A stretch of DNA of 26,528 nucleotides from a virus. Below the pieces are notes generated by a model. It was not told the DNA's origin, did no database searches, and saw nothing but the letters and a program-made list of their open reading frames with translations. The DNA lies in the IMG/VR virus record IMGVR_UViG_3300042887_001651, positions 1 through 26,528 of that record, one strand, 5' to 3'. Positions 3,984 through 25,578 of the stretch are shown one piece after another. A program made the position numbers and the translations under genes. The stretch's first letter is position 1. Every line of letters starts with the position of its first letter.

Positions 3984-4003
3984 TTATTCATACATCCTTT
4001 TTT
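3974..4003 (+). terminator. Terminator between convergent transglycosylase and metalloprotease genes
   Basis: A 9-bp stem (GGGTGTATG at 3974-3982 with CATACATCC at 3989-3997), loop ATTATT, then TTTTTT. The loop contains the stop codons of both convergent genes. The T run favours the plus strand. Confidence 0.8.
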
Positions 4004-4385: not shown

Positions 4386-4400
4386 ATTAAAGTTTGTTAG

Positions 4401-4407
4401 TATTTAT
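4401..4407 (+). promoter_or_regulatory. TATTTAT box before the tagged lysozyme-like gene
   Basis: Reads GTATTTATAATAAAAG, 18 nt before the ATG. The first base of the ATATTTAT box differs, but the following AATAAA matches the copies at 18326 and 25499. Confidence 0.4.
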
Positions 4408-4425: not shown

Positions 4426-5007
4426 ATGTCTAAAAAATTTATAATTTCCGAAGAAGAAAAAAGTCAAATAAAAGGATTATATAATCTGAATGAACAAGCC
4501 GGAGACATCCTTCAAGGATTTGCGGACTCAATTCTTAAAATGTTAGACTCAGATTTTAAAAACAATAATCAGGATAACACTATATTATCAAACAAAACAA
4601 CATCCGATGATGATTTTTATAAATCCATTTTAAAATGTTTAGGTGCTGAACCAACTAAAAGTAATATGTTATTTATGTATGCTTGGAGACAAGCTGAAGG
4701 TGGAGGAGCAAAAAATAATCCATTCAATACTACTCAAAAAATGGAAGGTGCAACCAATTATAATAAAATTGGTGTGAAAAACTATAGAACACCTGAAGAT
4801 GGTATACAAGCAACGTGTAAAACATTAACAAATGGTAGAAACAAATATGGATACGATAAAATTATTGACGGATTAAAAAATGATGTTGGATTATCTAAAC
4901 TATCCGACGCTGTTGTTAGTTCAAAATGGGGAACTAAAGATTTGTTAACTAGAATAACCAAAGACTACATTGCGGGAATATCCCCAAAACCTAAAGATAT
5001 TGCTTAA
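4426..5007 (+). CDS. Tagged lysozyme-like (glucosaminidase/transglycosylase-fold) protein, 193 aa
   Basis: Two parts. Residues 1-25 form the N-terminal tag KKFIISEEEKSQIKGLYNLN plus EQ, shared with 23181-23474. Residues 62-190 resemble lysozyme-like domains of phage virion lysins: AWRQAEGGGAKNNPFNTT (86-103, with Glu91 as the candidate catalytic acid), NKIGVKNYRTPEDGIQATCK (113-132) and TLTNGRNKYGYDKIIDGL. The layout (Glu in AEGG, NPxNTT, GVKxYxxxxDG, TLxNG) is that of the family; the catalytic assignment is inference. The tag ends at an (L)NE-Q site that could be cut by a prohead protease. It probably travels in the virion and opens the wall at infection. Own upstream box and a strong terminator. 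Confidence 0.75.
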   Translation: MSKKFIISEEEKSQIKGLYNLNEQAGDILQGFADSILKMLDSDFKNNNQDNTILSNKTTSDDDFYKSILKCLGAEPTKSNMLFMYAWRQAEGGGAKNNPFNTTQKMEGATNYNKIGVKNYRTPEDGIQATCKTLTNGRNKYGYDKIIDGLKNDVGLSKLSDAVVSSKWGTKDLLTRITKDYIAGISPKPKDIA

Positions 5008-14240: not shown

Positions 14241-14269
14241 AAAACCCTCGACTATTGTTGGGGGTTTTT
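14241..14269 (+). terminator. Terminator between convergent ClpP operon and tagged metalloprotease gene
   Basis: A 12-bp stem with two G-T pairs (14241-14252 with 14257-14268), loop TATT, run of A before and T after, so it can work in both directions. The stop codon of the minus-strand gene lies inside it. Confidence 0.75.
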
Positions 14270-15370
14270 ATCTTTTAATAGGGAATATAGTTTACTTAAT
14301 TTCTTTGTCATTTTAAGACAAATGTTTCTTGTTTGATTAATTTCGTATCGGAAGAATCGTTCATAATCTTTACCAAACCTTGTTATCTTATCTAAGTATT
14401 TATCAAAATATCTTTGTTTAGCACCACTGAACCCAAACATTGCCTCAGCAAAGTTGTCAGCCAAAAAGTCCCTCATACCACTAGCTTTCCAATTTAATAA
14501 TTGTTTAAAGAATTCTTTTAATGTTACGTCAACCATTTCTTCATCAGTCGCATCTTCCGGGTAATCAATATCATTATCATCAAAAGTTTGTTTAATTTGA
14601 GGAATAATATTTTTTAAATCTTCTCTCAACTTTTCATAAGTTAAATTTGCACCTGTTCTATAATTTTCATAAACCCTATGATTTGTTAAGAATTTGTAAA
14701 ACTCCTCTTTAGTAATTCCACTTTCTTCTAAGGCGGCATATAACTCAGTCGCTCTAACTAAATTTTCAGTTGTGTGAGCAAAATACATATAACTTAAAAA
14801 TTGATTTAGTGGTGGAATGTTTCCAAATCGTCTTCGAGAACCAATCTGATAATCAACTCTTTTATGTGTCTGAACTATTGGATTAACAGATTCATCATAA
14901 GCGTGTTTTAATTCGTGAGCCAAACTTGAAACCATAAGAGCTCGTTCTTTTTTGAATTCTTCAATTACTTCTTGAGTTGTTACATCAGTATCTGCCGCAA
15001 AACTAATTGACAACTCAACTTTATTTAAATCTGAATTTCTCTCATAGTTGAACTTGGCGTTCATTTTAACCTTACCGTGATGGGTCATACCTCGTAATAA
15101 CACTCTTGGTAAATCTCCTTCGGTATTATGATAGTCGTTTATATTATCAACCTCAAAAGATACTTTTATTGTCTTAAACTTGTAATCATTAATTTGGAAG
15201 TCACCTTTAAATGTAATTGTTTTAGAAATAAAATAAGTTATATCTTCATTAGGTTTAATTCTTGATATTATTTTGTTAAATAATTGTTGGGCAACGGCAA
15301 CGATGTTTGATGGAACTCCAACAGCTTCGTTTAAATTATTATATTGAGTTTCTTTGATTTTAATTTTCAT
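14252..15370 (-). CDS. Tagged zinc metalloprotease-like protein, 372 aa
   Basis: N-terminal tag MKIKIKETQYNNLNEAVG is a variant of the MKIIITE tag seen in neighbouring genes and contains an LNE-A site. Residues 24-145 are beta-rich. The motif SSLAHELKHAYDES (148-161) is a canonical HExxH zinc site; ENLVRATELYAALEESG (202-218) offers Glu candidates for the third ligand. The last 120 residues are helical, with a region FGFSGAKQRYFDKYLDKI and a basic end. Cytoplasmic or virion location; no signal peptide. The ATATTTAT box lies 4 nt before the ATG. Likely a virion-associated peptidase or a protein derived from one; substrate unknown. Confidence 0.8.
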   Translation of the reverse strand: MKIKIKETQYNNLNEAVGVPSNIVAVAQQLFNKIISRIKPNEDITYFISKTITFKGDFQINDYKFKTIKVSFEVDNINDYHNTEGDLPRVLLRGMTHHGKVKMNAKFNYERNSDLNKVELSISFAADTDVTTQEVIEEFKKERALMVSSLAHELKHAYDESVNPIVQTHKRVDYQIGSRRRFGNIPPLNQFLSYMYFAHTTENLVRATELYAALEESGITKEEFYKFLTNHRVYENYRTGANLTYEKLREDLKNIIPQIKQTFDDNDIDYPEDATDEEMVDVTLKEFFKQLLNWKASGMRDFLADNFAEAMFGFSGAKQRYFDKYLDKITRFGKDYERFFRYEINQTRNICLKMTKKLSKLYSLLKDKNPQQ

Positions 15371-15374
15371 ATTG

Positions 15375-15382
15375 ATAAATAT
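15375..15382 (-). promoter_or_regulatory. ATATTTAT box, 4 nt before the tagged metalloprotease start
   Basis: The coding strand reads GATATTTATCAATATG, the box and start codon of the tagged metalloprotease. Same spacing as at 4378, 16605, 18263 and 21244. Confidence 0.45.
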
Positions 15383-15390
15383 CTGTTAAA

Positions 15391-15415
15391 ATAAAAAACC
15401 CTCTGAATTAGAGGG
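15391..15415 (-). terminator. Terminator after the small lipoprotein gene
   Basis: CCCTCT (15399-15404) pairs with AGAGGG (15410-15415), loop GAATT; on the minus strand it is followed by TTTTTT. It ends minus-strand transcription coming from the lipoprotein gene, just before the box of the next gene. Confidence 0.8.
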
Positions 15416-15475
15416 AATTTGGGTCTTGATAATTTATATAATAAATTAATTCTAATAATATTAAATAATATTTAA

Positions 15476-15503
15476 AAACTAGGCTAGTAAACTAGGCTCT
15501 AGT
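15476..15503. repeat. Short direct repeat AAACTAGGCT in an intergenic gap
   Basis: AAACTAGGCT occurs at 15476-15485 and 15489-15498, each followed closely by CTAGT or AGT. It sits in the 122-nt AT-rich gap between the small lipoprotein gene and its terminator. It may be the remnant of a duplication or an operator. Confidence 0.4.
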
Positions 15504-15537
15504 AATTATAAATATCTATAAAAATGCAAAATTCAAA

Positions 15538-15771
15538 TTATCTTCGACGACCTCCCCTAACATTAAAATATGGTGCGGAAAATCTTTGTGGATAAACATA
15601 AACCGGAGTCACTACCGGATAATAAGTGTATGGGGTGTAATAATGATACACACGTCTTGGAATTGGTCTTGGCTCAGGTCTTTGACGAACACCATAAGAA
15701 TACACAACAGCCTGATAACCTTCACAAGAAGTTAATAAGACCAACATTAAAAGTAATAATTTTTTTTTCAT
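15538..15771 (-). CDS. Small Pro/Tyr/Arg-rich lipoprotein, 77 aa
   Basis: From the ATG at 15771 the protein is MKKKLLLLMLVLLTSCEGYQ, a lipoprotein signal with Cys16; an upstream ATG at 15780 would add three residues. The mature part is low-complexity: EPRPIPRRVYHYYTPYTYYP, then VVTPVYVYPQRF and a GGRRR end. Such Y/P/R-rich small lipoproteins are common in Bacteroidota; this one may be host-derived. Surface role inferred only. A terminator lies downstream. Confidence 0.75.
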   Translation of the reverse strand: MKKKLLLLMLVLLTSCEGYQAVVYSYGVRQRPEPRPIPRRVYHYYTPYTYYPVVTPVYVYPQRFSAPYFNVRGGRRR

Positions 15772-15851
15772 AATTTCCATTAAATATCAAATTTTATACC
15801 ATTTATGTCATTTTTTTCCACTAAAAAAGGTGTTTTGTCAAATATTTTCCA

Positions 15852-16238
15852 CTATTCTATGGTTTTTATGGGTTTTTTGAAGTGTTTCATAAACCAATCT
15901 TTAAATGGTTGATGCCATATGTCTCCGAAATATCCGTTCAAAGTATTAAAAGTGTCTATATCGTTAAAACTTAATATCGGTGATTGTTCAACCCATTTAT
16001 CAATTATTTCTTTATTATGATGGTTCATTTCATCACTATACCAATAATCCTCACCATACCACATAAATAAATCTTCATCATCTTCAAAATCACCCTGATA
16101 GAACGACATAGCATAATCCACCTCATTACCCCAATCATCAATACCATATGTCCAATGAATATTATTGATGTCGTAAGTTTCGTTCAGGTAATCAATAACC
16201 GCCTGATATAATTTACTCTCAGTTATTATTATTTTCAT
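15852..16238 (-). CDS. Tagged small protein (MKIIITE), 128 aa
   Basis: Tag MKIIITESKLYQAVIDYLNE, then an acidic, aromatic domain (DLFMWYGEDYWYSDEMNHHN) and a basic end (QPFKDWFMKHFKKPIKTIE). A second candidate cleavage site follows the tag (YLNE-T). The layout - short helix, beta part, a Y/F-rich stretch, final W-x-x-x-x-F/Y helix - recalls 16235-16600 and 20919-21239. Coupled to the upstream gene by a 4-nt overlap (ATGA). Function unknown; possible virion protein. Confidence 0.75.
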   Translation of the reverse strand: MKIIITESKLYQAVIDYLNETYDINNIHWTYGIDDWGNEVDYAMSFYQGDFEDDEDLFMWYGEDYWYSDEMNHHNKEIIDKWVEQSPILSFNDIDTFNTLNGYFGDIWHQPFKDWFMKHFKKPIKTIE

Positions 16239-16600
16239 TGTTTAATCCCTCCAATTACTCTATCAGTTTCTTGTTTATAGGTTTCATTAAACCATTTTAA
16301 AAGTAGTTCATCAACATTACCAAAATAACTATTTATTTCGTTATATAATTTTCTATCAACATATAATCTAACACCGGGATATGCGGGTCTTGTATTACCA
16401 CCTTTTTCCCAAACAACTGGCCCACCACTAACAACGTGAAATAAAACTTCCTTACTTTGTGGGTTAAAATATTTATAACCCCTACCAAAAGACATACTTT
16501 TAGTTGGTCTTTTTTTTAATTTACCAATATTAGGAGATAAGTCTTCAATAAACTGATGGACAATATGTTTTTGTTGTTGTTCTGTGATTATAACTTTCAT
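16235..16600 (-). CDS. Tagged small protein (MKVIITE), 121 aa
   Basis: Start at 16600 (MKVIITEQQQKHIVHQFIED); the reading to 16702 runs into the SGNH hydrolase gene and lacks the tag at its start. The box ATATTTAT 4 nt upstream confirms the choice. The middle is basic (GKLKKRPTKSMSFGRGYKYF) and the end reads NSYFGNVDELLLKWFNETYK. Function unknown. Confidence 0.75.
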   Translation of the reverse strand: MKVIITEQQQKHIVHQFIEDLSPNIGKLKKRPTKSMSFGRGYKYFNPQSKEVLFHVVSGGPVVWEKGGNTRPAYPGVRLYVDRKLYNEINSYFGNVDELLLKWFNETYKQETDRVIGGIKQ

Positions 16601-16604
16601 ATCA

Positions 16605-16612
16605 ATAAATAT
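16605..16612 (-). promoter_or_regulatory. ATATTTAT box, 4 nt before the 16600 start
   Basis: The coding strand reads GATATTTATTGATATG between the SGNH hydrolase stop and the tagged gene. It selects the internal start at 16600. Confidence 0.45.
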
Positions 16613-16613
16613 C

Positions 16614-17108
16614 TCATAACAATATATTATCAATAACTTTACCGATTTCTTTATACACCGGACAATCACAATGGGGGTCACCTTTTCCAATTGGTGGTCC
16701 AATTATTGTTCCACCTAATTCTTCATATCGTTTGTAGTATTTCTTAACCTTATCATAACCGGTGTGTTTAAGTTCACCCCAACCCCAAGAACCTTGGATG
16801 ACATAAATCTTAGCATTGGGAAATGTGACCCTCAGTGACTTAAATAATTTTTCAATACCATTATCGACATATAAGTCGTTGGTTCCAATACACAAAAAAA
16901 CATTTTTAACATTGGTTGAAACTTTACGTCTCTGAACCATTTTTATAAGGTCTGTAACCACAATCCCTTTTTTCCATAGTCCAACAACCCTTTCCACTTT
17001 TTTTGAGTTCATATCAACGTATGCCGTTTGAGAATCCCCAATAACAATATTTGTTGGAAGTTGGGAATACCCAACCAAACAAAACAATAAACAAATAATA
17101 AATTTCAT
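16614..17108 (-). CDS. Secreted SGNH/GDSL-type hydrolase, 164 aa
   Basis: Signal peptide MKFIICLLFCLVGYSQLPTN, with the YSQ cleavage region typical of Bacteroidota. SGNH blocks: GDSQ (24-27, nucleophile Ser26), GTND (75-78) and DPH (144-146, with the catalytic Asp/His pair closely spaced). Such enzymes are esterases or lipases, often removing O-acetyl groups from polysaccharides. With a signal peptide it should act in the periplasm or outside. A phage could use it on host surface glycans or peptidoglycan O-acetyl groups; inference. Length is short but complete for minimal SGNH proteins. Confidence 0.82.
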   Translation of the reverse strand: MKFIICLLFCLVGYSQLPTNIVIGDSQTAYVDMNSKKVERVVGLWKKGIVVTDLIKMVQRRKVSTNVKNVFLCIGTNDLYVDNGIEKLFKSLRVTFPNAKIYVIQGSWGWGELKHTGYDKVKKYYKRYEELGGTIIGPPIGKGDPHCDCPVYKEIGKVIDNILL

Positions 17109-17120
17109 ATTCTTATTAAA

Positions 17121-17148
17121 TTAAAAAACCCCCGTTTAATTGGGGGTT
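17121..17148 (-). terminator. Terminator after the 59-aa gene
   Basis: AACCCCC (17127-17133) pairs with GGGGGTT (17142-17148); on the minus strand the stem is followed by TTTTTTAA. It separates the 59-aa gene from the SGNH hydrolase gene. Confidence 0.8.
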
Positions 17149-17152
17149 AAAA

Positions 17153-17332
17153 TTATTTAGATGAAACTAAATAATATGTGGTTCCTTCGCGTTTAATATA
17201 CACGTTTCTTGGATTATCAACACTTGGATGGGTATTCCAAACTTCGGTCAAACCCGTTTCACCCTCCATAGGTTTCATAACACATTTTTTGTCTGCGAAC
17301 TTGATAGTTCTTGTGATTTTAACTTCTTCCAT
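17153..17332 (-). CDS. Small hypothetical protein, 59 aa
   Basis: Reads MEEVKITRTIKFADKKCVMK, then GETGLTEVWNTHPSVDNPRN and VYIKREGTTYYLVSSK. It looks like a compact beta protein. Support comes from clean start and stop positions between the neighbouring gene and a good terminator 4 nt after the stop. No known family. Confidence 0.7.
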   Translation of the reverse strand: MEEVKITRTIKFADKKCVMKPMEGETGLTEVWNTHPSVDNPRNVYIKREGTTYYLVSSK

Positions 17333-17362
17333 AGGAAATTATAAACAAAAATTATTTACCAA

Positions 17363-17662
17363 TCAATAGTTTGTTGGTTTTGTTATTGGACGACCGCCTT
17401 TACCATCCAAATACTTAATCACACAATTCTCACCATTAATAATAGAACAATAACCAAACAATCCATTTACAAAATCTTCCATAACCAACGCATCTTTACC
17501 GGGAATTCTTAACATAACTCTAAAAGTTGTTGGGTCAACATAAGCTAAATTAACATTTTTAAGAATGATTTCAAAATTTTTGTCTTTGTTATACCGAACA
17601 ATAACCTTTAACTCAGGATATAACATCTTTAAAACTTTTCTTATTGCAATCAATTTCTTCAT
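17363..17662 (-). CDS. Hypothetical protein, 99 aa
   Basis: Starts MKKLIAIRKVLKMLYPELKV, then IILKNVNLAYVDPTTFRVML and LFGYCSIINGENCVIKYLDG. Its beginning resembles that of 12607-12840 (FEKILHTLYPDLKIV). No tag and no known family. Confidence 0.7.
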   Translation of the reverse strand: MKKLIAIRKVLKMLYPELKVIVRYNKDKNFEIILKNVNLAYVDPTTFRVMLRIPGKDALVMEDFVNGLFGYCSIINGENCVIKYLDGKGGRPITKPTNY

Positions 17663-17695
17663 TTAAAAAATATAAAGTATAAATTGATAATAAGA

Positions 17696-17719
17696 AACCC
17701 CACCGATTAGGGAGGGGTT
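17696..17719 (-). terminator. Hairpin after the 38-aa gene
   Basis: AACCCC (17696-17701) pairs with GGGGTT (17714-17719) with a further partly paired CC/GG inside. The T run is stronger on the plus strand (TTATTTTTT), so direction is uncertain; the only adjacent gene ends from the minus side. Confidence 0.5.
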
Positions 17720-17724
17720 ATTTT

Positions 17725-17841
17725 TTACAATTCAGATTTTAATCTTGAAAGGATTTCGTTGTTTTTATTCATTATTTTTAACTTCTTAACAACATTTACT
17801 CTGTTTTTTTTAGGTTTCCCTATTTTTTTTGATTTAGACAT
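17725..17841 (-). CDS. Very small basic protein, 38 aa
   Basis: Reads MSKSKKIGKPKKNRVNVVKK, then LKIMNKNNEILSRLKSEL: a lysine-rich start and a short amphipathic helix. It lies alone between a hairpin on one side and the 134-aa gene on the other, 13 nt away. Its size makes the call tentative. It could be a nucleic-acid-binding peptide or an internal virion peptide. Confidence 0.55.
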   Translation of the reverse strand: MSKSKKIGKPKKNRVNVVKKLKIMNKNNEILSRLKSEL

Positions 17842-17853
17842 AATAATGATTTA

Positions 17854-18258
17854 CTAATAAGTATTTTGTTTTCTATTTTTAAAATGTAATCCCGCCTTAC
17901 CAAAGGTAACGGAGGTTAAATCAATACCCATATATTTTAAATCATCTTCCATTTCAGGTTTAAACGCCCAACTTAATGGGTATTTCAACGCTCTTTCATC
18001 CTTAAAATATTTTTCTTTGTATTTGTCACACACGTTCCACGGAACCGGAACCTCGGAATCTACCACAACAATATAATCGTAATTATTTCTCCAACTATCG
18101 TCAAAATCCCAACGCTCCTCACCATTAAATAAATCAACAATATGAACACTGAAGTTATACTTCGTGTCAGAACAAGTCATTTCATTTATTTTTTTATTAC
18201 CAAATGTATTCATATACTTGGTAATCATTTTGGGAACTATTTCGTCTTCTATATTCAT
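17854..18258 (-). CDS. Hypothetical protein, 134 aa
   Basis: I start at 18258 (MNIEDEIVPKMITKYMNTFG): the ATATTTAT box then lies exactly 4 nt upstream, while the earlier ATG at 18264 falls inside the box. The protein contains NFSVHIVDLFNGEERWDFDD, YDYIVVVDSEVPVPWNV and LSWAFKPEMEDDLKYMGIDL. No tag and no known family; the box suggests expression together with the tagged genes. Confidence 0.75.
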   Translation of the reverse strand: MNIEDEIVPKMITKYMNTFGNKKINEMTCSDTKYNFSVHIVDLFNGEERWDFDDSWRNNYDYIVVVDSEVPVPWNVCDKYKEKYFKDERALKYPLSWAFKPEMEDDLKYMGIDLTSVTFGKAGLHFKNRKQNTY

Positions 18259-18262
18259 AAAC

Positions 18263-18270
18263 ATAAATAT
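18263..18270 (-). promoter_or_regulatory. ATATTTAT box, 4 nt before the 18258 start
   Basis: The coding strand reads ATATTTATGTTTATG; the second ATG begins 4 nt after the box. It precedes a gene without the N-terminal tag, so the box is not merely part of a duplicated tag. Confidence 0.45.
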
Positions 18271-18325
18271 AATGAAAAATAATTTAATTTTACCACATTT
18301 TACAAGTCCAATAACAAATTTCGTA

Positions 18326-18333
18326 ATATTTAT
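18326..18333 (+). promoter_or_regulatory. ATATTTAT box, 14 nt before the GIY-YIG gene
   Basis: Reads ATATTTATAATAAAGG; the start codon follows after 14 nt, with AAAGGA as a possible weak ribosome binding site. Confidence 0.45.
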
Positions 18334-18347
18334 AATAAAGGACTATT

Positions 18348-19235
18348 ATGATAATTTACAAATCGACAAACAAGATTACCGGAAAAATATATATTGGACA
18401 GACAACTAAAAATTTAGAACAAAGAATTAAAGGACATATAAAAGAATCTAAAATAGATAAAAACCGACCATTTTTGTTATCAATAAATAAATATGGTGAG
18501 GATAATTTTATATTTGAAACAATTGATTCTGCAGATAATTTAGATGAGTTAAACGATAAAGAAATATATTGGATAGATTTTTATAATTCAGTATCACCAA
18601 ATGGTTATAATGTTACTGGTGGGGGTCAAGGTAAAAAAATGAAAACAACAAAAGAGTTAAGTAGAATAATCTCAGAAGGATTAAAAAATTCTGAAAAATG
18701 GCAAAAAACTAAAAATAGTGAAGAATATAAAATAAAAATGGAAAAATCTTTTATTGGGTGGTTTAGAGGTAAAAAATTTAGTCAGAAACATAAAGAAAAA
18801 ATTTGGGAAAAAAATAAAGACAGAATATTAGAATTTAATAAATCCACATCTAAAAAATGGATTGTTGTTGATAAAGAAAATAATATTATTCGTATTACCG
18901 GTAAAGAAGAATATTTTGAAAAATTAGGTATGGATACTGGTGATATATCAAGAATGAGTAAAACATTAAGTCAAGGTAAAAATAGAAAAAGATATAACGG
19001 ATATTATTGTTTTATTGATAATGGAGAATCTGATGAAACAATATTAAAAATAGTTTCAAAATTAGATGAGTTTTATAATAAAGAATATAAAATTTATAAC
19101 AGAATTACCCAAGAAACAAAAATATTAAAAAAAGATGAGGTCTATTCTTTCTGTATGACAGAGAATTATGACTACTCATCTTTTTTAAGAATGATTAAAA
19201 AACAATTTAAGTCCTATAAGAATTGGGTTATATGA
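18348..19235 (+). CDS. Free-standing GIY-YIG homing endonuclease
   Basis: The GIY-YIG domain covers residues 1-95: IIYKSTNKITGKIYIGQTTK (IIY and YIG strands), Arg26 in EQRIKGH, Glu72 in KEIYWIDFYN, and NGYNVTGGG (85-93). All catalytic positions are present. The remaining 200 residues are lysine-rich with repeated modular DNA-binding segments, for example FRGKKFSQKHKEKIWEKNKD, reminiscent of NUMOD-type modules. Such phage genes (Seg/Mob type) cut related phage DNA lacking them and spread by repair. It is the only plus-strand gene between 14.2 and 26.5 kb and sits between unrelated genes, as expected of an inserted mobile gene. It is more A-rich than its neighbours. Confidence 0.92.
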   Translation: MIIYKSTNKITGKIYIGQTTKNLEQRIKGHIKESKIDKNRPFLLSINKYGEDNFIFETIDSADNLDELNDKEIYWIDFYNSVSPNGYNVTGGGQGKKMKTTKELSRIISEGLKNSEKWQKTKNSEEYKIKMEKSFIGWFRGKKFSQKHKEKIWEKNKDRILEFNKSTSKKWIVVDKENNIIRITGKEEYFEKLGMDTGDISRMSKTLSQGKNRKRYNGYYCFIDNGESDETILKIVSKLDEFYNKEYKIYNRITQETKILKKDEVYSFCMTENYDYSSFLRMIKKQFKSYKNWVI

Positions 19236-19241
19236 TTTTTA

Positions 19242-19598
19242 CTACCACGCTCTACAACTCCAGTATCTGCTTTTGTACTTCGGCCCCGGATTATCACAAT
19301 TATGTCTTGCTCTAAAAGATTTACGGTGTTTAGGACTATATGCCTTTATTCTCATATTAGGGTCTCCAAAATTTACCTTAACAACATTTCCTTTTTCGTT
19401 TTTAACATATACCGAGCGTTTTTTAGGTCCGTCAGGTGTTAAAAATGGTTTATTAAGGGTTACTTTTCTTCCCTGATATTCCGCCTCAGTCAATAAGTCA
19501 CCAACAACAAAGTTGGTCTCCTCAACTGAACCATAAAAACTATCATCCAAATTGTTGAATAGTTTGTCGTACTGTGATTCTGTAATTATTATTTTCAT
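19242..19598 (-). CDS. Tagged basic protein with conserved RKSFRARHNC tail, 118 aa
   Basis: Tag MKIIITESQYDKLFNNLDDS, then a conserved C-terminal domain: RKVTLNKPFLTPDGPKKRSV, YVKNEKGNVVKVNFGDPN and HRKSFRARHNCDNPG, ending YWSCRAW. The second part is familiar from large T4-like and marine phages, where it is attached to different partners. The two cysteines plus His may bind zinc; this and the strong positive charge suggest contact with DNA or the head interior. Tag plus this domain supports a virion protein. It follows the upstream gene by 5 nt. Confidence 0.8.
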   Translation of the reverse strand: MKIIITESQYDKLFNNLDDSFYGSVEETNFVVGDLLTEAEYQGRKVTLNKPFLTPDGPKKRSVYVKNEKGNVVKVNFGDPNMRIKAYSPKHRKSFRARHNCDNPGPKYKSRYWSCRAW

Positions 19599-19603
19599 AA
19601 TTT

Positions 19604-20068
19604 TTAATTTATTTTATCTAAACTACTTTTTACACCATTTATTATTACATTAGGTGGTAATGGAAATTGATTTGAACTTATCTTAATATTTGGGTCAGTG
19701 ATTTTTGAAGACAAATCATTTAAAGCATCAAATAGGTATTTTGAAATGTCATCACCTTGACCCTCAGTTACAGAATTTGCAGCATTAACACCCGTATTTA
19801 TATCTAACAATTTTAAATCAACTCTTAAACTACCAAACATACTAAAATAAGTTCCCACTATCATATGTGTGGCATTTGGAGATAATCTTGATTTAATATT
19901 TGGAACATTCGCTAAGTAATCTGATAAAGAACCATATGTTTTATTCTGTGTAGCCCCTGATGTCGCCCCTGATGTTGCAGGTGGATTTACTTGCTCAGAT
20001 AACATTCTTTTTTCCAATCTTAAATTTGCTTCTTGGATGTGTCTAATTTTACTAAAACTTCTATTCAT
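19604..20068 (-). CDS. Tagged protein, RHIQEAN/MLSEQ type, 154 aa
   Basis: The N-terminus (SFSKIRHIQEANLRLEKRML, then SEQ) is another recurrent phage tag: a helix ending at LSE-Q, followed by a T/S/G/A-rich linker (PPATSGATSGATQNKTYG). The main part has SLRVDLKLLDINTGVNAANS and DDISKYLFDALNDLSSKI, which resembles the strand-helix plan of FlgO/CsgG-like domains (RLxDxxTGxxxxA). No catalytic site seen. Three nt separate its start from the upstream stop. Confidence 0.75.
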   Translation of the reverse strand: MNRSFSKIRHIQEANLRLEKRMLSEQVNPPATSGATSGATQNKTYGSLSDYLANVPNIKSRLSPNATHMIVGTYFSMFGSLRVDLKLLDINTGVNAANSVTEGQGDDISKYLFDALNDLSSKITDPNIKISSNQFPLPPNVIINGVKSSLDKIN

Positions 20069-20071
20069 AAT

Positions 20072-20917
20072 TTATTTCTTTTTGTAACTTGTCATTGTTG
20101 GTTTATTTCCGGTTCCCACTTTTGGGTCTTTCTTTTCAGCTCTTCTTTTTTGTTGGGTCATTGCTTTTTTCTCATCCTTGTCATATGATGATGCAACCTT
20201 TGGTGTTTCTTTTGAAACCTTTTTTGATGGACGACATTTTGGATACGCCTTTCCGTCGGCATCCTTTCTTCCACAAGGTGGATGTTTCCCGTCAACTTTT
20301 TTGCTTACATCAACCCACTTCTCCTTAAACCATCTTCTCAAATCTTCATTAACATTTTCGTTCTTTGGTTTAATTCCTTTCTTCTTCATATTGATGGCGA
20401 TTGCCGCTTGTTGAGCCGGACTCGACGCTTCGTTGGTTTCAATAGATTCGTTAGATAATTTCTTTTTCTTTTTTCTCCAACCACCACCTTTTGATTTATA
20501 CCACTTAGCTGCCCATCCATTTGCATAAGCACTTGGGTAAACTTTAAATTTAGATTTGGCTGCGGATTTGGCTCTTGACCATAATGACGGATTGGTTGGT
20601 TGGTTTTCACCTTCATTTAATTGATTATCATCCGAACATCTCTCTAAATAATAATCATAAATATATTCTTCAAATTCATTTTCTAATGTTTCTAAAAACT
20701 CTCCTTTATCCATTCCTTGAAAATCATCAACGTCATCGTAATAAATACCGGCTTCATAAATAACACCATTCATAAAATGTGTAATCCCCGCATAATCACA
20801 CGTATACATATTTTCCATTAAGTTATCAAGGAATATTTGAATACCACTTAATCGTCTTCTAACTGAAGAATCCATCTCCAATAACTTGTATTGTCTTTCT
20901 GTAATTATTAATTTCAT
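20072..20917 (-). CDS. Tagged multi-module basic protein, 281 aa
   Basis: Start at 20917 (MKLIITERQYKLLEMDSSVR), 1 nt after the upstream stop; the longer reading adds 11 residues before the tag. Modules: (1) tag plus an acidic helical domain related to 21776-22093 and 24490-24795 (CDYAGITHFMNGVIYEAG; EEYIYDYYLERC); (2) SLWSRAKSAAKSKFKVYPSA then YANGWAAKWYKSKGGGW; (3) SSPAQQAAIAINMKKKGIKP; (4) WFKEKWVDVSKKVDGKHPPC then GRKDADGKAYPKCRPSKKVS with a lysine-rich end. Modules 2-4 occur in other large phages in various combinations (DUF5872/DUF6321-like, from memory). The high charge and the Cys pair around CGRK ... KCRPSK suggest a DNA-contacting head protein. Function inferred only. Confidence 0.8.
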   Translation of the reverse strand: MKLIITERQYKLLEMDSSVRRRLSGIQIFLDNLMENMYTCDYAGITHFMNGVIYEAGIYYDDVDDFQGMDKGEFLETLENEFEEYIYDYYLERCSDDNQLNEGENQPTNPSLWSRAKSAAKSKFKVYPSAYANGWAAKWYKSKGGGWRKKKKKLSNESIETNEASSPAQQAAIAINMKKKGIKPKNENVNEDLRRWFKEKWVDVSKKVDGKHPPCGRKDADGKAYPKCRPSKKVSKETPKVASSYDKDEKKAMTQQKRRAEKKDPKVGTGNKPTMTSYKKK

Positions 20918-20918
20918 A

Positions 20919-21239
20919 TTAAAAATTGTTGTATAATTTAATTGGGTCAATTCCGTAAGTTCTCTTTAACCATCTCTTAACTAATTGTTCCGATTCAAAT
21001 TCATCACCAGTGAACATTCTAATACTATTCACCATTTCCCAATCAATAAATGCCGATTGACTATGTTTATTATAAAAAAATACAATATCATCTTTTGTTG
21101 GTGATTTTCCCGTATCTTTCACAAAAAAAATAAGTTCAGGTCTGTTTTTACTCACAAAATGAATTAATCCACCATATTCATCCGACAAATGTTTATCAAT
21201 AAGTCGTTCCCTTTTATTTTCCGTGATTAAAAACTTCAT
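20919..21239 (-). CDS. Tagged small protein (MKFLITE), 106 aa
   Basis: Tag MKFLITENKRERLIDKHLSD, followed by LIHFVSKNRPELIFFVKDTG, SQSAFIDWEMVNSIRMFTGD and a final helix QLVKRWLKRTYGIDPIKLY. This architecture matches the first 80 residues of the repeat-bearing gene at 8539-9075 (YPDYIFHMKDGK ... VSYREIWKFFEDYF ... QIKDITKIWVEEHYK). It shows that the WVEEHYK end there is a native family feature. ATATTTAT box 4 nt upstream. Confidence 0.75.
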   Translation of the reverse strand: MKFLITENKRERLIDKHLSDEYGGLIHFVSKNRPELIFFVKDTGKSPTKDDIVFFYNKHSQSAFIDWEMVNSIRMFTGDEFESEQLVKRWLKRTYGIDPIKLYNNF

Positions 21240-21243
21240 ATAA

Positions 21244-21251
21244 ATAAATAT
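21244..21251 (-). promoter_or_regulatory. ATATTTAT box, 4 nt before the 21239 start
   Basis: The coding strand reads GGGGGATATTTATTTATATG: the box abuts a hairpin arm and precedes the ATG by 4 nt. Confidence 0.45.
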
Positions 21252-21276
21252 CCCCCAATCTAATTAAAGATGGGGG
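21252..21276 (-). terminator. C5/G5 hairpin ahead of the 21239 box
   Basis: CCCCC (21252-21256) pairs with GGGGG (21272-21276), extended by ATCT/AGAT with a bulge. It lies after the 21287-21748 gene. On the minus strand the stem is followed not by a T run but by ATATTTAT; on the plus strand TTTTTTT follows. Confidence 0.55.
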
Positions 21277-21286
21277 AATTTTTTTA

Positions 21287-21748
21287 TTATATTTCTTCTC
21301 CGAAGATATCGTCCGTCCAATTCTCAGGAACAAGAATAATTATATGTCCTTGTCTAACTTCTATTAATGATTCCGGAACCACACCATCAAGTCTTTCTAA
21401 TATCTCAGGGTTTTCTCTGAAGACAACTCTCAACTTTCCATCGGGAGCGGTGTCCACAACCTTGTGGTTAAACCCATCCATAATTTCCTTGAATCTATCT
21501 AGTTCACCAAAATCTTCAGATTCTTCATCCTCAATATCAATATCACCACCCAAAAATCTATCAGGGACATTACTCTGCCCACCACTTTTAAGGTATTTAA
21601 TTTCCTCATCGGTCATACCTTCAAGTCCAACCTCATTATATAAATCCAAAATGATGTCGTAGTATTCAGAATCAAATTGTTCATTGATGATTCTCATTAC
21701 AATTCTTCTCAAATCAGATTCCGTTAGTTTTATAATTTTCTTTTTCAT
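21287..21748 (-). CDS. Tagged acidic protein (KLTESDLRRIV type), 153 aa
   Basis: Tag MKKKIIKLTESDLRRIVMRI then INEQ: the common large-phage N-terminus 'K-x-x-LTESDLxRIVxRIINE', with a potential cut after INE. The rest is acidic (DIDIEDEESEDFGELDRFKE) and ends in a beta part (SLIEVRQGHIIILVPENWTD). No catalytic motif. The ATATTTAT box lies 14 nt upstream. Possible virion-interior protein. Confidence 0.75.
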   Translation of the reverse strand: MKKKIIKLTESDLRRIVMRIINEQFDSEYYDIILDLYNEVGLEGMTDEEIKYLKSGGQSNVPDRFLGGDIDIEDEESEDFGELDRFKEIMDGFNHKVVDTAPDGKLRVVFRENPEILERLDGVVPESLIEVRQGHIIILVPENWTDDIFGEEI

Positions 21749-21762
21749 TTTAATTGTTTAAT

Positions 21763-21770
21763 ATAAATAT
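21763..21770 (-). promoter_or_regulatory. ATATTTAT box, 14 nt before the 21748 start
   Basis: The coding strand reads ATATATTTATATTAAAC, then 14 nt to the ATG. It has the same spacing as the copies at 18326, 23489 and 25499. Confidence 0.45.
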
Positions 21771-21775
21771 ATCAA

Positions 21776-22093
21776 TTATGAGCATTGTTTATCGTAAAGT
21801 TCTTGGAGGTAGTCAGCAAAATTATCCGCCATAAAGTAATATAAATCGTCTTTAGTTTTAACCTCCACCTTACCACCATTTTCATAATAGTAATCATCAA
21901 TTAAATCATTAACTAATAAATCACACATCTCACCAATAAAATCACCTAATGTACTATAATCACAAGGATTATAATTCTCCATAATGAAATCTAAATGACC
22001 TTTAATTTCATCGTAGTTAAATCTTCTACGAAGTGCTGCCGGAATATTCTCCATCAATAAATCGTTCTGCCTCTCAGTAATTATTATTTTCAT
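21776..22093 (-). CDS. Tagged acidic helical protein (MKIIITE), 105 aa
   Basis: Tag MKIIITERQNDLLMENIPAA, then RRRFNYDEIKGHLDFIMENY, CDYSTLGDFIGEMCDLLVND and a C-terminal NFADYLQELYDKQC. It aligns by eye with the first 110 residues of 20072-20917 (RRRLSG ... ENMYTCDYAGITHF ... YYLERC) and with 24490-24795, making a three-member paralogue group. Its start overlaps the upstream gene by 20 nt. Function unknown. Confidence 0.78.
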   Translation of the reverse strand: MKIIITERQNDLLMENIPAALRRRFNYDEIKGHLDFIMENYNPCDYSTLGDFIGEMCDLLVNDLIDDYYYENGGKVEVKTKDDLYYFMADNFADYLQELYDKQCS

Positions 22094-22412
22094 TTAGATA
22101 TATTTTGTTTATATAAATTTTTGCATTAGGAATCCATTGCTCAATAACATATTCAATCATAGGTAAAATTATTTCAAAATCTTCTCTATCTGTGTTTAAA
22201 TAAAGATTGACATTAACACTAATACCATCAGTTGTTTTTATTTCATCAACAACTATATTTTCAACCGATGAAACCTCATCTATCTCATCCATCTCACCTA
22301 AACCCCACTCATCATCGGCCATTTGACGCAAGTTATTTAACTCATCATCAAGAATTTCTTGGACAAAGATTTTTAGTTGTTCAATTTTATTTTCTGTAAT
22401 TATTATTTTCAT
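22074..22412 (-). CDS. Tagged protein (MKIIITE), 112 aa
   Basis: Tag MKIIITENKIEQLKIFVQEI, an acidic linker (ADDEWGLGEMDEIDEVSSVE) and a beta-alpha domain (ISVNVNLYLNTDREDFEIIL, then PMIEYVIEQWIPNAKIYINK). The last part resembles 1984-2253 in pattern. It overlaps the upstream gene by 4 nt (ATGA). Confidence 0.75.
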   Translation of the reverse strand: MKIIITENKIEQLKIFVQEILDDELNNLRQMADDEWGLGEMDEIDEVSSVENIVVDEIKTTDGISVNVNLYLNTDREDFEIILPMIEYVIEQWIPNAKIYINKIYLNENNNY

Positions 22413-22819
22413 TGGTTAAAATAATTATCAATTATTTGTTGTAGGGAAATACCAAACTCCTTTAAGTTTTCCTTAGTCATACCCAAAGGTCCCAAACCAA
22501 GTAAATTAAAAAAATCACGTTCACTATATATGGTTCTACGACCATCCCTTTCCATTGACACCCAACCTGGTGAAATAAACCATCCTTTATCACCCTGATT
22601 TTGAATAATAAATGGTGTCCCTTCAACCGATAATTCATATATCGGTCCATAGGTTTTAATTAAATGTTCATAAGTCCCTCTATCATTATAAAATACTTCC
22701 TTAACCTCATCTTCTAATTTATTCCAACGTCCAAGCTCCTCAATATGTTCGGGAAAATTATCCGGTAACATACTAATTATTAATTCCTTTAACCTATTTT
22801 CTGTAATTATTATTCTCAT
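22409..22819 (-). CDS. Tagged protein (MRIIITE), 136 aa, paralogue of the next gene
   Basis: Tag MRIIITENRLKELIISMLPD; the domain contains TYEHLIKTYGPIYELSVEGT, FIIQNQGDKGWFISPGW and a C-terminal FGISLQQIIDNYF. The neighbouring 22816-23178 protein has the same landmarks (HYGPMYRFF, LVQNQKGQLWFIA, GISLRTIIDEF), so the pair arose by tandem duplication. No catalytic residues obvious. Overlaps the upstream gene by 4 nt. Confidence 0.78.
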   Translation of the reverse strand: MRIIITENRLKELIISMLPDNFPEHIEELGRWNKLEDEVKEVFYNDRGTYEHLIKTYGPIYELSVEGTPFIIQNQGDKGWFISPGWVSMERDGRRTIYSERDFFNLLGLGPLGMTKENLKEFGISLQQIIDNYFNQ

Positions 22820-23178
22820 TCTTCAACAAATTCATCAATTATTGTTCTCAAACTAATACCCAAAGATTCAATTCCAAGTATTTTTAAAAAGTCATAATAA
22901 TCTATTTCATATCCATCACTTGTGTTCGCAATAAACCATAATTGACCTTTTTGATTTTGAACCAAATAATCACCCTTTTTAGTAAAAAATCTATACATTG
23001 GACCATAATGGTTAAGATAATGAACAAACATTTGCTTATAATCACTAAAAACCGCATATTTTTCAGAACTATCTAAATCATACCAACTTGTAATCATCTC
23101 AATACGGTCAGATAAATTATACCCAATCAATTTATTAACCATATTCTTAAACTTATTCTCTGTAATAATTAATTTCAT
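22816..23178 (-). CDS. Tagged protein (MKLIITE), 120 aa, paralogue of the previous gene
   Basis: Tag MKLIITENKFKNMVNKLIGY; then FVHYLNHYGPMYRFFTKKGD, YLVQNQKGQLWFIANTSDGY and ILGIESLGISLRTIIDEF. It shares landmarks with 22409-22819 but with low overall identity, so the duplication is old. It follows the upstream gene by 2 nt. Function unknown. Confidence 0.78.
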   Translation of the reverse strand: MKLIITENKFKNMVNKLIGYNLSDRIEMITSWYDLDSSEKYAVFSDYKQMFVHYLNHYGPMYRFFTKKGDYLVQNQKGQLWFIANTSDGYEIDYYDFLKILGIESLGISLRTIIDEFVEE

Positions 23179-23180
23179 AA

Positions 23181-23474
23181 CTATTTAATCAAACCACGTT
23201 CTTTGGCTTCTCTAGCACCACGAATTTCGTTACTTGGAATTGGTAACGTTCTTGGTTTAATTTTGTTAATTGCATTATTAAACCCACGACGATAATCCTC
23301 ATAATCTTTTTCAGTTGGAGTTACTTCCTTAACACCTGAAATAGTTCTTTTAGCCGTTTTAATAAATCTGAAATCAGGTTCTTCAGTTGTTCCGGATGTT
23401 GTTGGAGGTACAGGTTGTTCATACAATCCAATAATGTGTTTTTTTTCTTCTTCAGAAATTATAAATTTTCTCAT
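23181..23474 (-). CDS. Tagged small protein (KFIISEEEK type), 97 aa
   Basis: Tag MRKFIISEEEKKHIIGLYEQ, nearly the same as that of the lysozyme-like gene at 4426. It is followed by a P/T/G-rich linker (PVPPTTSGTTEEPDF) and a basic helical end (YRRGFNNAINKIKPRTLPIP). The tag ends in YEQ, so cleavage there would release the remaining 77 residues. The ATATTTAT box lies 14 nt upstream. No known domain after the tag. Confidence 0.78.
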   Translation of the reverse strand: MRKFIISEEEKKHIIGLYEQPVPPTTSGTTEEPDFRFIKTAKRTISGVKEVTPTEKDYEDYRRGFNNAINKIKPRTLPIPSNEIRGAREAKERGLIK

Positions 23475-23488
23475 AACATCATTTTAAT

Positions 23489-23496
23489 ATAAATAT
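23489..23496 (-). promoter_or_regulatory. ATATTTAT box, 14 nt before the 23474 start
   Basis: The coding strand reads GGGGGATATTTATATTAAAA, followed after 14 nt by the start codon of the tagged gene. Confidence 0.45.
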
Positions 23497-23521
23497 CCCC
23501 CAACTCCAAAAGGGGCGGGGG
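23497..23521 (-). terminator. C5/G5 hairpin between 23550-24005 and the 23474 box
   Basis: CCCCC (23497-23501) pairs with GGGGG (23517-23521), with a second GGGG just inside. On the minus strand the stem runs directly into ATATTTAT; on the plus strand it is followed by TTTT. The same composite occurs at 25507-25537. Confidence 0.5.
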
Positions 23522-23549
23522 TTTTGAAATTGAGTGAAACGAGTTCGGG

Positions 23550-24005
23550 TTATTTTTCGGTCACACCAAAAACCTCAAAGAATTTATCCTCATTTGTTTT
23601 TTCAGGGGGGAATATAAATGACTGAACGTGAAAGGAAACGAAGTCCATTCCATCATAAGTCATTTTAAAATAGTCGGTAAGTTCATCACCATATTCTTTC
23701 TTGGATTTTTTCATACCATTTGTTTCATCAAAATATAAATCAACCCCAACCAAATAGTTATATACCGGATTAAATGTCATAGGGTCATACATTTTATTAT
23801 CTCGATACCCAACGGACACAATGTCCTTAATTTCCGGACACATCTTTAAGACAACATCCTTAAATCTTTCGGGAATAACAATTGGTTTAGCATACGGGTT
23901 TCCGTTAAAATCAGGTTCCTTTTGACCAATCCGAATCACATTACCACCGTATGTGTTATTCATATAAAAGTCGGCAAGGTTTACTACATCATCTTCTGTT
24001 TCCAT
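23550..24005 (-). CDS. Hypothetical protein, 151 aa
   Basis: Reads METEDDVVNLADFYMNNTYG, then FKDVVLKMCPEIKDIVSVGY, VYNYLVGVDLYFDETNGMKK and MDFVSFHVQSFIFPPEKT. An alpha/beta protein without tag and without the ATATTTAT box close by. No family recognised. It lies between two tagged genes. Confidence 0.75.
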   Translation of the reverse strand: METEDDVVNLADFYMNNTYGGNVIRIGQKEPDFNGNPYAKPIVIPERFKDVVLKMCPEIKDIVSVGYRDNKMYDPMTFNPVYNYLVGVDLYFDETNGMKKSKKEYGDELTDYFKMTYDGMDFVSFHVQSFIFPPEKTNEDKFFEVFGVTEK

Positions 24006-24050
24006 AAAATTATTTTTTAAAAAAAGATAATCATATTATTTTATAAAGTC

Positions 24051-24080
24051 AAAAAAAAAAACCCACTCGTTAAAGTGGGT
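24051..24080 (-). terminator. Terminator after the 24089-24421 gene
   Basis: ACCCACT (24061-24067) pairs with AGTGGGT (24074-24080), loop CGTTAA, followed on the minus strand by ten or more T (24060-24051 and beyond). A strong intrinsic terminator. Confidence 0.88.
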
Positions 24081-24088
24081 GTTATGAA

Positions 24089-24421
24089 TTAAAATTTTGT
24101 ATGATGTTTTCTCATTTCAGAATCAAGTAATGATTGAATGTCTTTAAGTCTTCTTGTATGAATTGGGTTATCATTCGCAATTGACAACAAAAATTTAATA
24201 TCACTAGCTCTCATCGGAATCATCGAACCACCTTGTTCAAATTCCCTATTTTTTTTAGTAGCATCTGTGGCTCTTCTCAAGGCATAGTCAATATAATCAT
24301 CATCCATATTATCAATATTACTAAGTTTAGGTAACCCTGAATCATCAAACGGAGCTTCACTAATTATTCTTCTAACCAAACGATTCAAATCGTTCTCACT
24401 TAATCTTACAACTTTTTTCAT
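24089..24421 (-). CDS. Tagged small protein (RLSENDLNRLV type), 110 aa
   Basis: Tag MKKVVRLSENDLNRLVRRII then SEAPF, the same class as 21287-21748, with a possible cut after ISE. The rest is helical (YIDYALRRATDATKKNREFE; RRLKDIQSLLDSEMRKHH). No catalytic motif. It is a single-gene unit with its own box 36 nt upstream and a strong terminator. Confidence 0.78.
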   Translation of the reverse strand: MKKVVRLSENDLNRLVRRIISEAPFDDSGLPKLSNIDNMDDDYIDYALRRATDATKKNREFEQGGSMIPMRASDIKFLLSIANDNPIHTRRLKDIQSLLDSEMRKHHTKF

Positions 24422-24457
24422 TTTTATTTTTTTATTTAACGTTAAATTTATTTATAT

Positions 24458-24465
24458 ATAAATAT
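24458..24465 (-). promoter_or_regulatory. ATATTTAT box, 36 nt before the 24421 start
   Basis: The coding strand reads ATATATTTATATATAAATAA. The box is further from the start codon than elsewhere; the region is very AT-rich, so chance occurrence is more likely here. Confidence 0.3.
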
Positions 24466-24489
24466 ATCAACATCACAAAAAAAAAAAGG

Positions 24490-24795
24490 TTAACATTTTT
24501 CTCTACCGGCAAAATAAAACTCGGTACATTCAACATAAAACATATCGGTTAACGTGGCTTGAAATTCTTTATAATCAAAATTCTCCTCCTCATAATAATA
24601 GGGGTGAAGAGAATCCATAAACACGGAGAAAAAATAATATTCAAAATCCTCATAGGTATCACGACGACAGATACCATCCCGGGTATATTCCATCGTAAGT
24701 TTCAACTCCTGTTTAACCAAATCATAGTTACGTCTTAACCAAAGTTTGGAATTAAACATTCTATCATACTGTTCTTCTGTTATAATAATTTTCAT
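24490..24795 (-). CDS. Tagged acidic helical protein (MKIIITE), 101 aa
   Basis: Tag MKIIITEEQYDRMFNSKLWL, then RRNYDLVKQELKLTMEYTRD and DFEYYFFSVFMDSLHPYYYE, ending MFYVECTEFYFAGREKC. It shares the plan of 21776-22093 and of the first module of 20072-20917 (RR-x-Y/L, helix, C/D-rich turn, acidic-aromatic helix, terminal Cys). Function unknown. Box 5 nt upstream. Confidence 0.78.
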   Translation of the reverse strand: MKIIITEEQYDRMFNSKLWLRRNYDLVKQELKLTMEYTRDGICRRDTYEDFEYYFFSVFMDSLHPYYYEEENFDYKEFQATLTDMFYVECTEFYFAGREKC

Positions 24796-24800
24796 ATTAA

Positions 24801-24808
24801 ATAAATAT
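24801..24808 (-). promoter_or_regulatory. ATATTTAT box, 5 nt before the 24795 start
   Basis: The coding strand reads GGGGGATATTTATTTAATATG (as box plus 5 nt plus ATG), abutting a C5/G5 hairpin arm. Confidence 0.45.
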
Positions 24809-24831
24809 CCCCCAACTTAAAAAGAGGGGGG
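24809..24831 (-). terminator. C5/G6 hairpin overlapping the end of the 44-aa gene
   Basis: CCCCC (24809-24813) pairs with GGGGG within 24826-24831. It includes the last codons and stop of the 44-aa gene and runs into the ATATTTAT box of the next gene. Confidence 0.5.
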
Positions 24832-24951
24832 ATAATTTATAATCTCCATAAGTCCATCAACCTTTATTCCAACCTCATCACCCTCAAGTAATAAATGTTT
24901 TTTCTTTGACGTTACAAAATCTCTTTTAAGTTTAAGTTTAAATAAACCCAT
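24817..24951 (-). CDS. Very small basic protein, 44 aa
   Basis: Reads MGLFKLKLKRDFVTSKKKHL, then LLEGDEVGIKVDGLMEIINY and PPSF. A lysine-rich strand-like start followed by an acidic part. It begins 2 nt after the stop of the tagged gene at 24954, and its end forms one arm of a hairpin. The codon pattern looks genuine, but size limits confidence. Confidence 0.6.
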   Translation of the reverse strand: MGLFKLKLKRDFVTSKKKHLLLEGDEVGIKVDGLMEIINYPPSF

Positions 24952-24953
24952 TA

Positions 24954-25484
24954 TTATTTCTTTTTAAATTGTTCAAACCATTCTAAAAACTCATCATCAA
25001 TAGCTTGTACACCATCTTCTATAAGTTGTTCGTCTGTTGTTAGGATGATTTTTTTAGGATTAGCAAATTGAACGTGAGATAATTTATAACTTCTTTTTAA
25101 TGAATTATTACTATCTGTAAACCAATCTCCTTCTTTAATTTCTGAATCATTAGTGATGTAGATGTTTCTACCCTCTACAATAGAATTAATCTCTCTACTT
25201 ATTTGAGGATTTGTTGATAGGAATAATTTACCGTCAAAATGTAACCTACCTGGTTTATCTGTTGGTAATACGTGTATGTTTTTCATATCTTCTTTATATC
25301 CCGCTTTGGCGTATCTTTCTTCAGCAGTAGGATAATATTGTTCACTAACCAATGGTTTTGAATCACCAAGTTTTGAATTTAATAATTTAGAGAAATTCTC
25401 AGTTATAACATTCATTCCCCCTGTGTGTTGTTCAAGGATTGAGTTTTTTTCCTCATTCGACAAATTGTTTAATAGATGTTTCAT
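24954..25484 (-). CDS. Tagged protein (LSNEEKNSILEQH type), 176 aa
   Basis: The N-terminus MKHLLNNLSNEEKNSILEQH is a tag related to the ISEEEKxxIxGLYEQ class, ending ILE-Q; a second site (NVITE) follows. The domain contains GRLHFDGKLFLSTNPQISRE, INSIVEGRNIYITNDSEIKE and KIILTTDEQLIEDGVQAIDD, ending in a short charged helix. This second part looks like a small beta-roll with a regular T/S pattern; no family recognised. Box 14 nt upstream. Confidence 0.75.
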   Translation of the reverse strand: MKHLLNNLSNEEKNSILEQHTGGMNVITENFSKLLNSKLGDSKPLVSEQYYPTAEERYAKAGYKEDMKNIHVLPTDKPGRLHFDGKLFLSTNPQISREINSIVEGRNIYITNDSEIKEGDWFTDSNNSLKRSYKLSHVQFANPKKIILTTDEQLIEDGVQAIDDEFLEWFEQFKKK

Positions 25485-25498
25485 AATTTCTTTTTATT

Positions 25499-25506
25499 AT
25501 AAATAT
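25499..25506 (-). promoter_or_regulatory. ATATTTAT box, 14 nt before the 25484 start
   Basis: The coding strand reads GATATTTATAATAAAAAG, then the ATG at 14 nt from the box. It is near-identical to the copy at 18326. Confidence 0.45.
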
Positions 25507-25537
25507 CCCCCAACTCCGAAATAAAAGGGGCGGGGGG
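25507..25537 (-). terminator. C5/G6 hairpin ahead of the 25484 box
   Basis: CCCCC (25507-25511) pairs with GGGGG within 25532-25537, with another GGGG inside. The 25538-25575 stretch after it contains TCCGGTTCCGGA, a short palindrome-like element. No gene is seen in 25485-25614. Confidence 0.5.
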
Positions 25538-25578
25538 ATTTGAATTCGACCGAAGGGAGTCCGGTTCCGGAGAGACAA

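Follow-up and report, generated by a model that had tools for sequence, protein, structure and literature searches.

In phage T4, the N-termini of packaged proteins have a targeting role and are cut by gp21 at L/I-x-E (PMC9026906); the packaged set is diverse, united by its targeting sequence (PMC3012670), and includes Alt, an ADP-ribosyltransferase (PMC9026906). In SPN3US and phiKZ, many head proteins, ejection proteins among them, carry N-terminal propeptides that a gp21-like protease cleaves behind an E (PMC5694885), and in phage P1 the N-terminal 30 residues of DarB send the protein into the head for injection (PMC9024508). Here we describe 17 genes that begin with short, shared N-terminal tags in a 26,528-nucleotide stretch of viral DNA (virus record IMGVR_UViG_3300042887_001651; hereafter the window, meaning this whole stretch). 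We consider it probable, at roughly 0.8, that these tags are capsid-targeting propeptides like those of the T4 internal proteins, greatly expanded in number and in classes.

The likeness to T4 lies in the arrangement of the parts. There, as here, a short N-terminal extension with an (I/L)xE ending stands on unrelated proteins (IPI, IPII, IPIII and Alt), a gp21-family protease is present, and gp23 bears the same type of site (PMC9026906, PMC3012670). A handful of proteins are tagged in T4, whereas there are about 17 in 26 kb here and about 30 in the closest relative that we found, in several classes. The tags also lack clear sequence likeness to the MKTYQEFIAE of T4 and are known here from sequence alone. 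The N-termini in the T4 record are MKTYQEFIAE/A for IPII and IPIII, MELITE/L for Alt, MLKEQLIAE/A for gp22 and MAKINELLRE/S for gp24, and gp23 has FLTE followed by A near residue 65. The exact places of these cuts are our assumption, taken from the L/I-x-E rule and general knowledge. SPN3US and phiKZ share with the phages described here the large genome and, on the reading proposed, would also share the many head proteins cut after E and the ejected cargo, but belong to another giant-phage lineage, in which several propeptides exceed 100 residues and no shared tag is repeated (PMC5694885). For the Dar N-termini of P1, a different phage group, no common consensus is reported (PMC9024508).

Short N-terminal tags on unrelated proteins

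All 17 tagged N-termini are real open reading frame starts at the positions claimed for them by the first-pass annotation, and every one of the proteins has at least one (I/L)xE within its first 29 residues. The largest body of evidence comes from the MKIIITE class, which was found with a degenerate DNA pattern, so that the part up to E was fixed by the search. This pattern matches at least 120 stretches of viral contigs, whereas the reversed pattern, used as a control, has 48 matches in the entire collection; in 22 large tag-bearing viral records a slightly wider pattern occurs 1-12 times each and its reversed form not at all. The occurrence of the tag is more than chance. The consensus of this class, taken over 177 non-redundant proteins, reads M-K-I-I-I-T-E-[SN]-Q-[YL]-x-x-[LI]-x-E, in which Q9, L/I13 and E15 lie outside what the search required and are independent findings. 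The MK(I/L/V/F)IITE-like tag of the first-pass annotation is thus real, but the conserved unit is longer than proposed and extends through the [LI]-x-E near residue 15. The gene starting at 15370 is a divergent member of this class (MKIKIKETQYNNLNEA).

What follows the tags differs from protein to protein. Once 20 residues had been trimmed, 241 MKIIITE-tagged proteins from public viral contigs could be sorted into no fewer than 83 unrelated families, of which 50 had a single member, and the sole related pair among the tagged proteins of the window was that encoded at 22409-22819 and 22816-23178 (E 9e-12). The proposal that the tags sit on unrelated domains is borne out by these counts, and the tags are not the beginnings of longer homologous domains, as information falls to background by residue 17-20. 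The module of the protein starting at 19598 occurs untagged in other viral contigs, and an untagged window gene (8539-9135) has a tagged homolog in the closest relative. From the family trimming it follows that the tag is a portable module. Synonymous codon positions within the tags vary while the residues are kept, which points to selection on the peptide and not on the DNA. Searches by tblastn with the short tag peptides returned nothing, and a literature search for the tag letters found no description of the tags.

The classes named by the first-pass annotation are present, but we read them as sharing a single plan, a helix start with T/S-E-x-Q/D/E: IITESQYKKLI in class A, LTESDLTRIVKRVINE in class B and IISEEEKxxI in class C. 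At least one further class, MNLQEN..RI..MMG.(I/L)xE, is added by the closest relative and is also found at other loci. Classes B, C and D were gathered from loci fetched for other purposes, most of which bear tags. In class B the E at +13, which the search did not demand, is present in 37 of 37 non-redundant proteins; the residue two before it is I in 30, L in 4, V in 2 and M in 1, and conservation falls at the residue right after E. The E is kept in 18 of 25 proteins of the fourth class. Within the MKIIITE class, 46 of the 83 families show (I/L)xE a second time, at offsets of 5-17 after the first E and with a small or polar residue directly behind it, as against 8, 1 and 5 families in the three sequence windows that follow and a shuffle mean of 10 (maximum 20 in 2000 shuffles). 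The residue after this second site is mostly S/D/N/E/Q/A/G, and further downstream K/L/I/F prevail; in the zinc-protease family of the gene starting at 15370, all five homologs retain the second site. The (I/L)xE ending attributed to the tags holds in 34 of 37 class B proteins and, as a second site, in 46 of the 83 MKIIITE families.

Upstream motif, relatives and head genes

The closest relative found is a 322-kb viral record, IMGVR_UViG_3300042482_000702 (G001), with whose first 19 kb the window is syntenic, and the window is a piece of a T4-type jumbo phage that is close kin of G001. A nucleotide search against the nearest cultured phages gave no match to the window. The terminase-portal-protease-capsid module of G001 contains a gene for ribosomal protein S21, which lies on the opposite strand; bS21-encoding jumbo phages resemble G001 both in having the S21 gene in the head module and in genome size, and their predicted hosts are freshwater Bacteroidetes (PMC9723584). 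In the text covered, the report on these phages does not mention N-terminal tags or tagged cargo (PMC9723584). The window belongs to a large uncultured phage, probably with a host among the Bacteroidetes, and this phage is probably kin to the bS21 phages of freshwater Bacteroidetes.

The tagged genes share an upstream motif. With gene calls limited to ATG starts and a rough rule for the leads of transcription units, [AG]TATTTAT lies on the coding strand within 60 bases upstream of 8 of 8 tagged leads in the window, compared with 2 of 20 untagged ones (p = 1.4e-5). In G001, with the same kind of calls and rule, it precedes 10 of 11 tagged leads vs 51 of 189 untagged (shuffling predicts 7), and among the untagged genes with the motif are some whose sequences look like those of tail sheath, tail tube and scaffold. 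An (I/L)xE with a small or polar residue after it is found in residues 4-28 of the products of 28 of 58 motif genes of G001 vs 19 of 117 others (p = 2e-5; p = 0.001 without the MKIIITE class). The motif has no conserved -35 element, and its distance to the start codon is in most cases 12 or 22 bases. We read it as a putative late promoter shared by tagged and virion genes.

Two further observations concern the motif. The spacings of 12 and 22 bases, seen in G001 and the window, differ by about one helical turn and suggest near-leaderless late transcripts. Terminator-like hairpins of a C-run and a G-run abut the GATATTTAT motif at 21244-21290, 23489-23540, 24801-24845 and 25499-25560, and hairpin and motif look as if a terminator had been fused to the next promoter.

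A prohead protease gene was sought and, by way of relatives of the window, found: of the 22 large tagged records, 12 carry the T4-type gp20 portal and precisely these 12 carry the gp21 protease, G001 among them. The gp23 of the relatives contains QAS[FYH]LINE followed by A, invariant in 10 homologs and at the place that matches the T4 cut. A terminase is present in 15 of 50 tagged records, 14 of which also have gp21 (the exception is G051), and an HK97-type capsid (PF05065) in none of the 50. Most of the records without head genes are probably fragments that lack the head module. In one tagged record (G010) a tagged gene lies between the core gene and gp21, and in another (G007) a tagged gene lies just before the terminase.

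Probable capsid targeting and its alternatives

The view put forward in the first-pass annotation, that the tagged proteins are cargo or core proteins packaged in the head, gains support from the short and portable tags, the (I/L)xE endings, the presence of gp21, the gp23 site and the upstream motif that tagged and virion genes have in common. We infer packaging, cleavage and injection, which could proceed as follows. The tagged genes would be transcribed late, together with virion genes, from the common promoter suggested by the motif. By analogy with T4, the short amphipathic N-terminus would bind the prohead core and draw its protein into the assembling prohead, where a gp21-type protease could cut behind the closing (I/L)xE of the tag, and the freed cargo would remain in the DNA-filled head. 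Some of this cargo, such as the DUF5872 and zinc-protease proteins and, in relatives, lysozymes, a sigma factor and possibly ADP-ribosyltransferases, would probably be ejected into the host and act at once. Because the expansion is one of number and classes, such a system would be a variation on T4 capsid targeting and not categorically new.

Among the tagged families are phage lysozymes, SLT transglycosylase, GDSL hydrolase, LysM, DUF5872, ECF sigma, DHH and HNH endonuclease-like proteins, together with weak ADP-ribosyltransferase-like matches. At locus L032 (2154-4127), two nearby tagged proteins have ADP-ribosyltransferase-like starts, YHGSN and YHGFN, one of them with a weak PARP match, and locus L100 (6783-7346) encodes an ECF-type sigma-70 factor with a tag (MKIIITESQYNTIINE then G), a candidate virion-carried sigma factor. 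PADLOC gave a defence-family match in no tagged protein. Models of two tagged proteins were of low confidence (predicted local distance difference test scores of 50.6 and 50.3), and a fold search with one of them gave no usable match.

Several observations weigh against capsid targeting. About half of the MKIIITE families are without a second site, so a cut in those proteins would need to come within the conserved stretch itself, after residue 7. When the HVA1-like module was followed through its many N-terminal contexts, the junction between tag and domain was often not (I/L)xE. HNH endonuclease-like proteins are odd cargo for a phage head. Head genes are absent from the window, which is tied to gp21 by way of relatives, and although gp21 is more frequent in tagged records than in contigs with the reversed pattern, this control (1 of 21, about 1.2 Mb) is too small to weigh. 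Finally, immuto, a Flavobacterium phage of the T4 type, lacks tags of these kinds although it has gp21.

The alternative closest to capsid targeting keeps the same targeting and cleavage and differs in the fate of the proteins, which would be core or scaffold parts for head building, cut and lost at maturation instead of being delivered. T4 offers a precedent in gp22, gp67 and gp68, core proteins that gp21 likewise takes as substrates and cleaves into fragments (PMC9026906), and many of the tagged window proteins are small and acidic. The enzyme and regulatory domains on many tagged proteins (lysozyme, SLT, GDSL, LysM, ECF sigma, DUF5872) do not fit such a role, nor does the tagged set differing between relatives, unlike a structural core, and we regard this alternative as unlikely. 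The tags might otherwise be an address to another destination (tail or baseplate, membrane, replication compartment), with (I/L)xE as a feature of the helix; class B does read as a basic amphipathic helix, and several tagged families are peptidoglycan-active, like tail enzymes. The pattern of conservation is that of a protease site, however, with E and the small or polar residue next to it kept and the residue before E varying, and the invariance of the same site in gp23 makes another destination improbable. It is harder still to credit a feature of the nucleotides or of shuffling, by which the starts would be alike because they favor translation or are recombination seams that have been copied from gene to gene. 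An AT-rich MKIII opening would indeed favor translation, and the tags are spread over many genes, but synonymous codons vary freely where residues, including Q9 and L/I13, are kept, and several unlike classes share the peptide-motif ending.

A bolder extension of capsid targeting is conceivable, which we offer tentatively and think more doubtful than not: a multi-class address code. Several distinct tags would together bring dozens of proteins per genome into the head, perhaps to separate regions of the core or in differing doses, and the arsenal injected in this way would include a sigma factor that redirects host transcription from the first moment of infection.

Features of the window and their meaning

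Table 1. Tagged genes and promoter-like motifs in the window.
Feature	Coordinates	Strand	Remarks
Tagged HExxH zinc-protease-like protein	14252..15370	-	MKIKIKETQYNNLNE-AVGVP after putative cut site
Tagged acidic protein	15852..16238	-	MKIIITESKLYQAVIDYLNE then T; tagged homologs in G001
Tagged protein	16235..16600	-	MKVIITEQQQ
Tagged basic protein, Cys-containing HVA1-like module	19242..19598	-	MKIIITESQY...DLLTE then AEYQGRK
Tagged protein, variant class	19604..20068	-	RHIQE then A...RMLSE then Q
Tagged basic DUF5872 protein	20072..20917	-	MKLIITERQYKLLE; Pfam PF19197 E 1.8e-16
Tagged protein	20919..21239	-	MKFLITENKRERLI
Tagged acidic protein, class B	21287..21748	-	LTESDLRRIVMRIINE then Q
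Tagged protein	21776..22093	-	MKIIITERQNDLLME then N
Tagged acidic protein	22074..22412	-	MKIIITENKIEQL
Tagged protein	22409..22819	-	MRIIITENRLKELI; paralog of 22816..23178 protein
Tagged protein	22816..23178	-	MKLIITENKFKNMV
Tagged protein, class C	23181..23474	-	KFIISEEEKKHIIGLYE then Q
Tagged protein, class B	24089..24421	-	LSENDLNRLVRRIISE then A
Tagged protein	24490..24795	-	MKIIITEEQYDRMF
Tagged protein, class C variant	24954..25484	-	SNEEKNSILE then Q
Tagged protein, class C	4426..5007	+	KFIISEEEKSQIKGLYNLNE then Q
Promoter-like motif ATATTTAT	15375..15382	-	before 15370
Promoter-like motif ATATTTAT	16605..16612	-	before 16600
Promoter-like motif ATATTTAT	21244..21251	-	before 21239, right after C5...G5 hairpin
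Promoter-like motif ATATTTAT	21763..21770	-	before 21748
Promoter-like motif ATATTTAT	23489..23496	-	before 23474, right after C5...G5 hairpin
Promoter-like motif ATATTTAT	24458..24465	-	before 24421
Promoter-like motif ATATTTAT	24801..24808	-	before 24795, right after C...G5 hairpin
Promoter-like motif ATATTTAT	25499..25506	-	before 25484, right after C...G5 hairpin
Promoter-like motif GTATTTAT	4400..4407	+	before 4426; second copy at 4372

The label 'lysozyme-like', given earlier to the protein encoded from 4426, was not confirmed. Divergent from this gene, and with a promoter region common to both, an untagged small HExxH protein (LAHEWVHEYQ) is encoded at 3984-4373. The HVA1-like and DUF5872-type basic modules (Table 1) recur in hundreds of viral contigs, where they are combined in many ways. 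Other genes of the window encode an FKBP isomerase (2564), an SLT transglycosylase (3423), a thymidylate synthase-like protein (5833), a ClpP-like protease (13165) and a GIY-YIG endonuclease (18348), of which the last is the only one preceded by the late motif. Four 36-nucleotide repeats with 66-nucleotide spacing at 8606-8839 were considered as an array of clustered regularly interspaced short palindromic repeats (CRISPR) and rejected on comparison with G001, because the copies there (L148, 8893-9312) are diverged, variably spaced (63-69, with 66/69 noted) and within a reading frame. A protein-coding repeat (VEEHYKMGVTST) whose linkers vary is the likelier reading of the stretch, and locus L093 has two similar copies.

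In summary, most proteins of uncultured jumbo phages are without known function, and the tags may show which of them the virus carries into its host. If the tags mark virion cargo, sequence alone would list candidate injected effectors in at least 83 families, which would open a route to seek anti-defence proteins in phages that have not been grown and would provide new short peptides for loading proteins into phage heads. In addition, the motif found upstream of the tagged genes would serve as a marker of late genes in this phage group.

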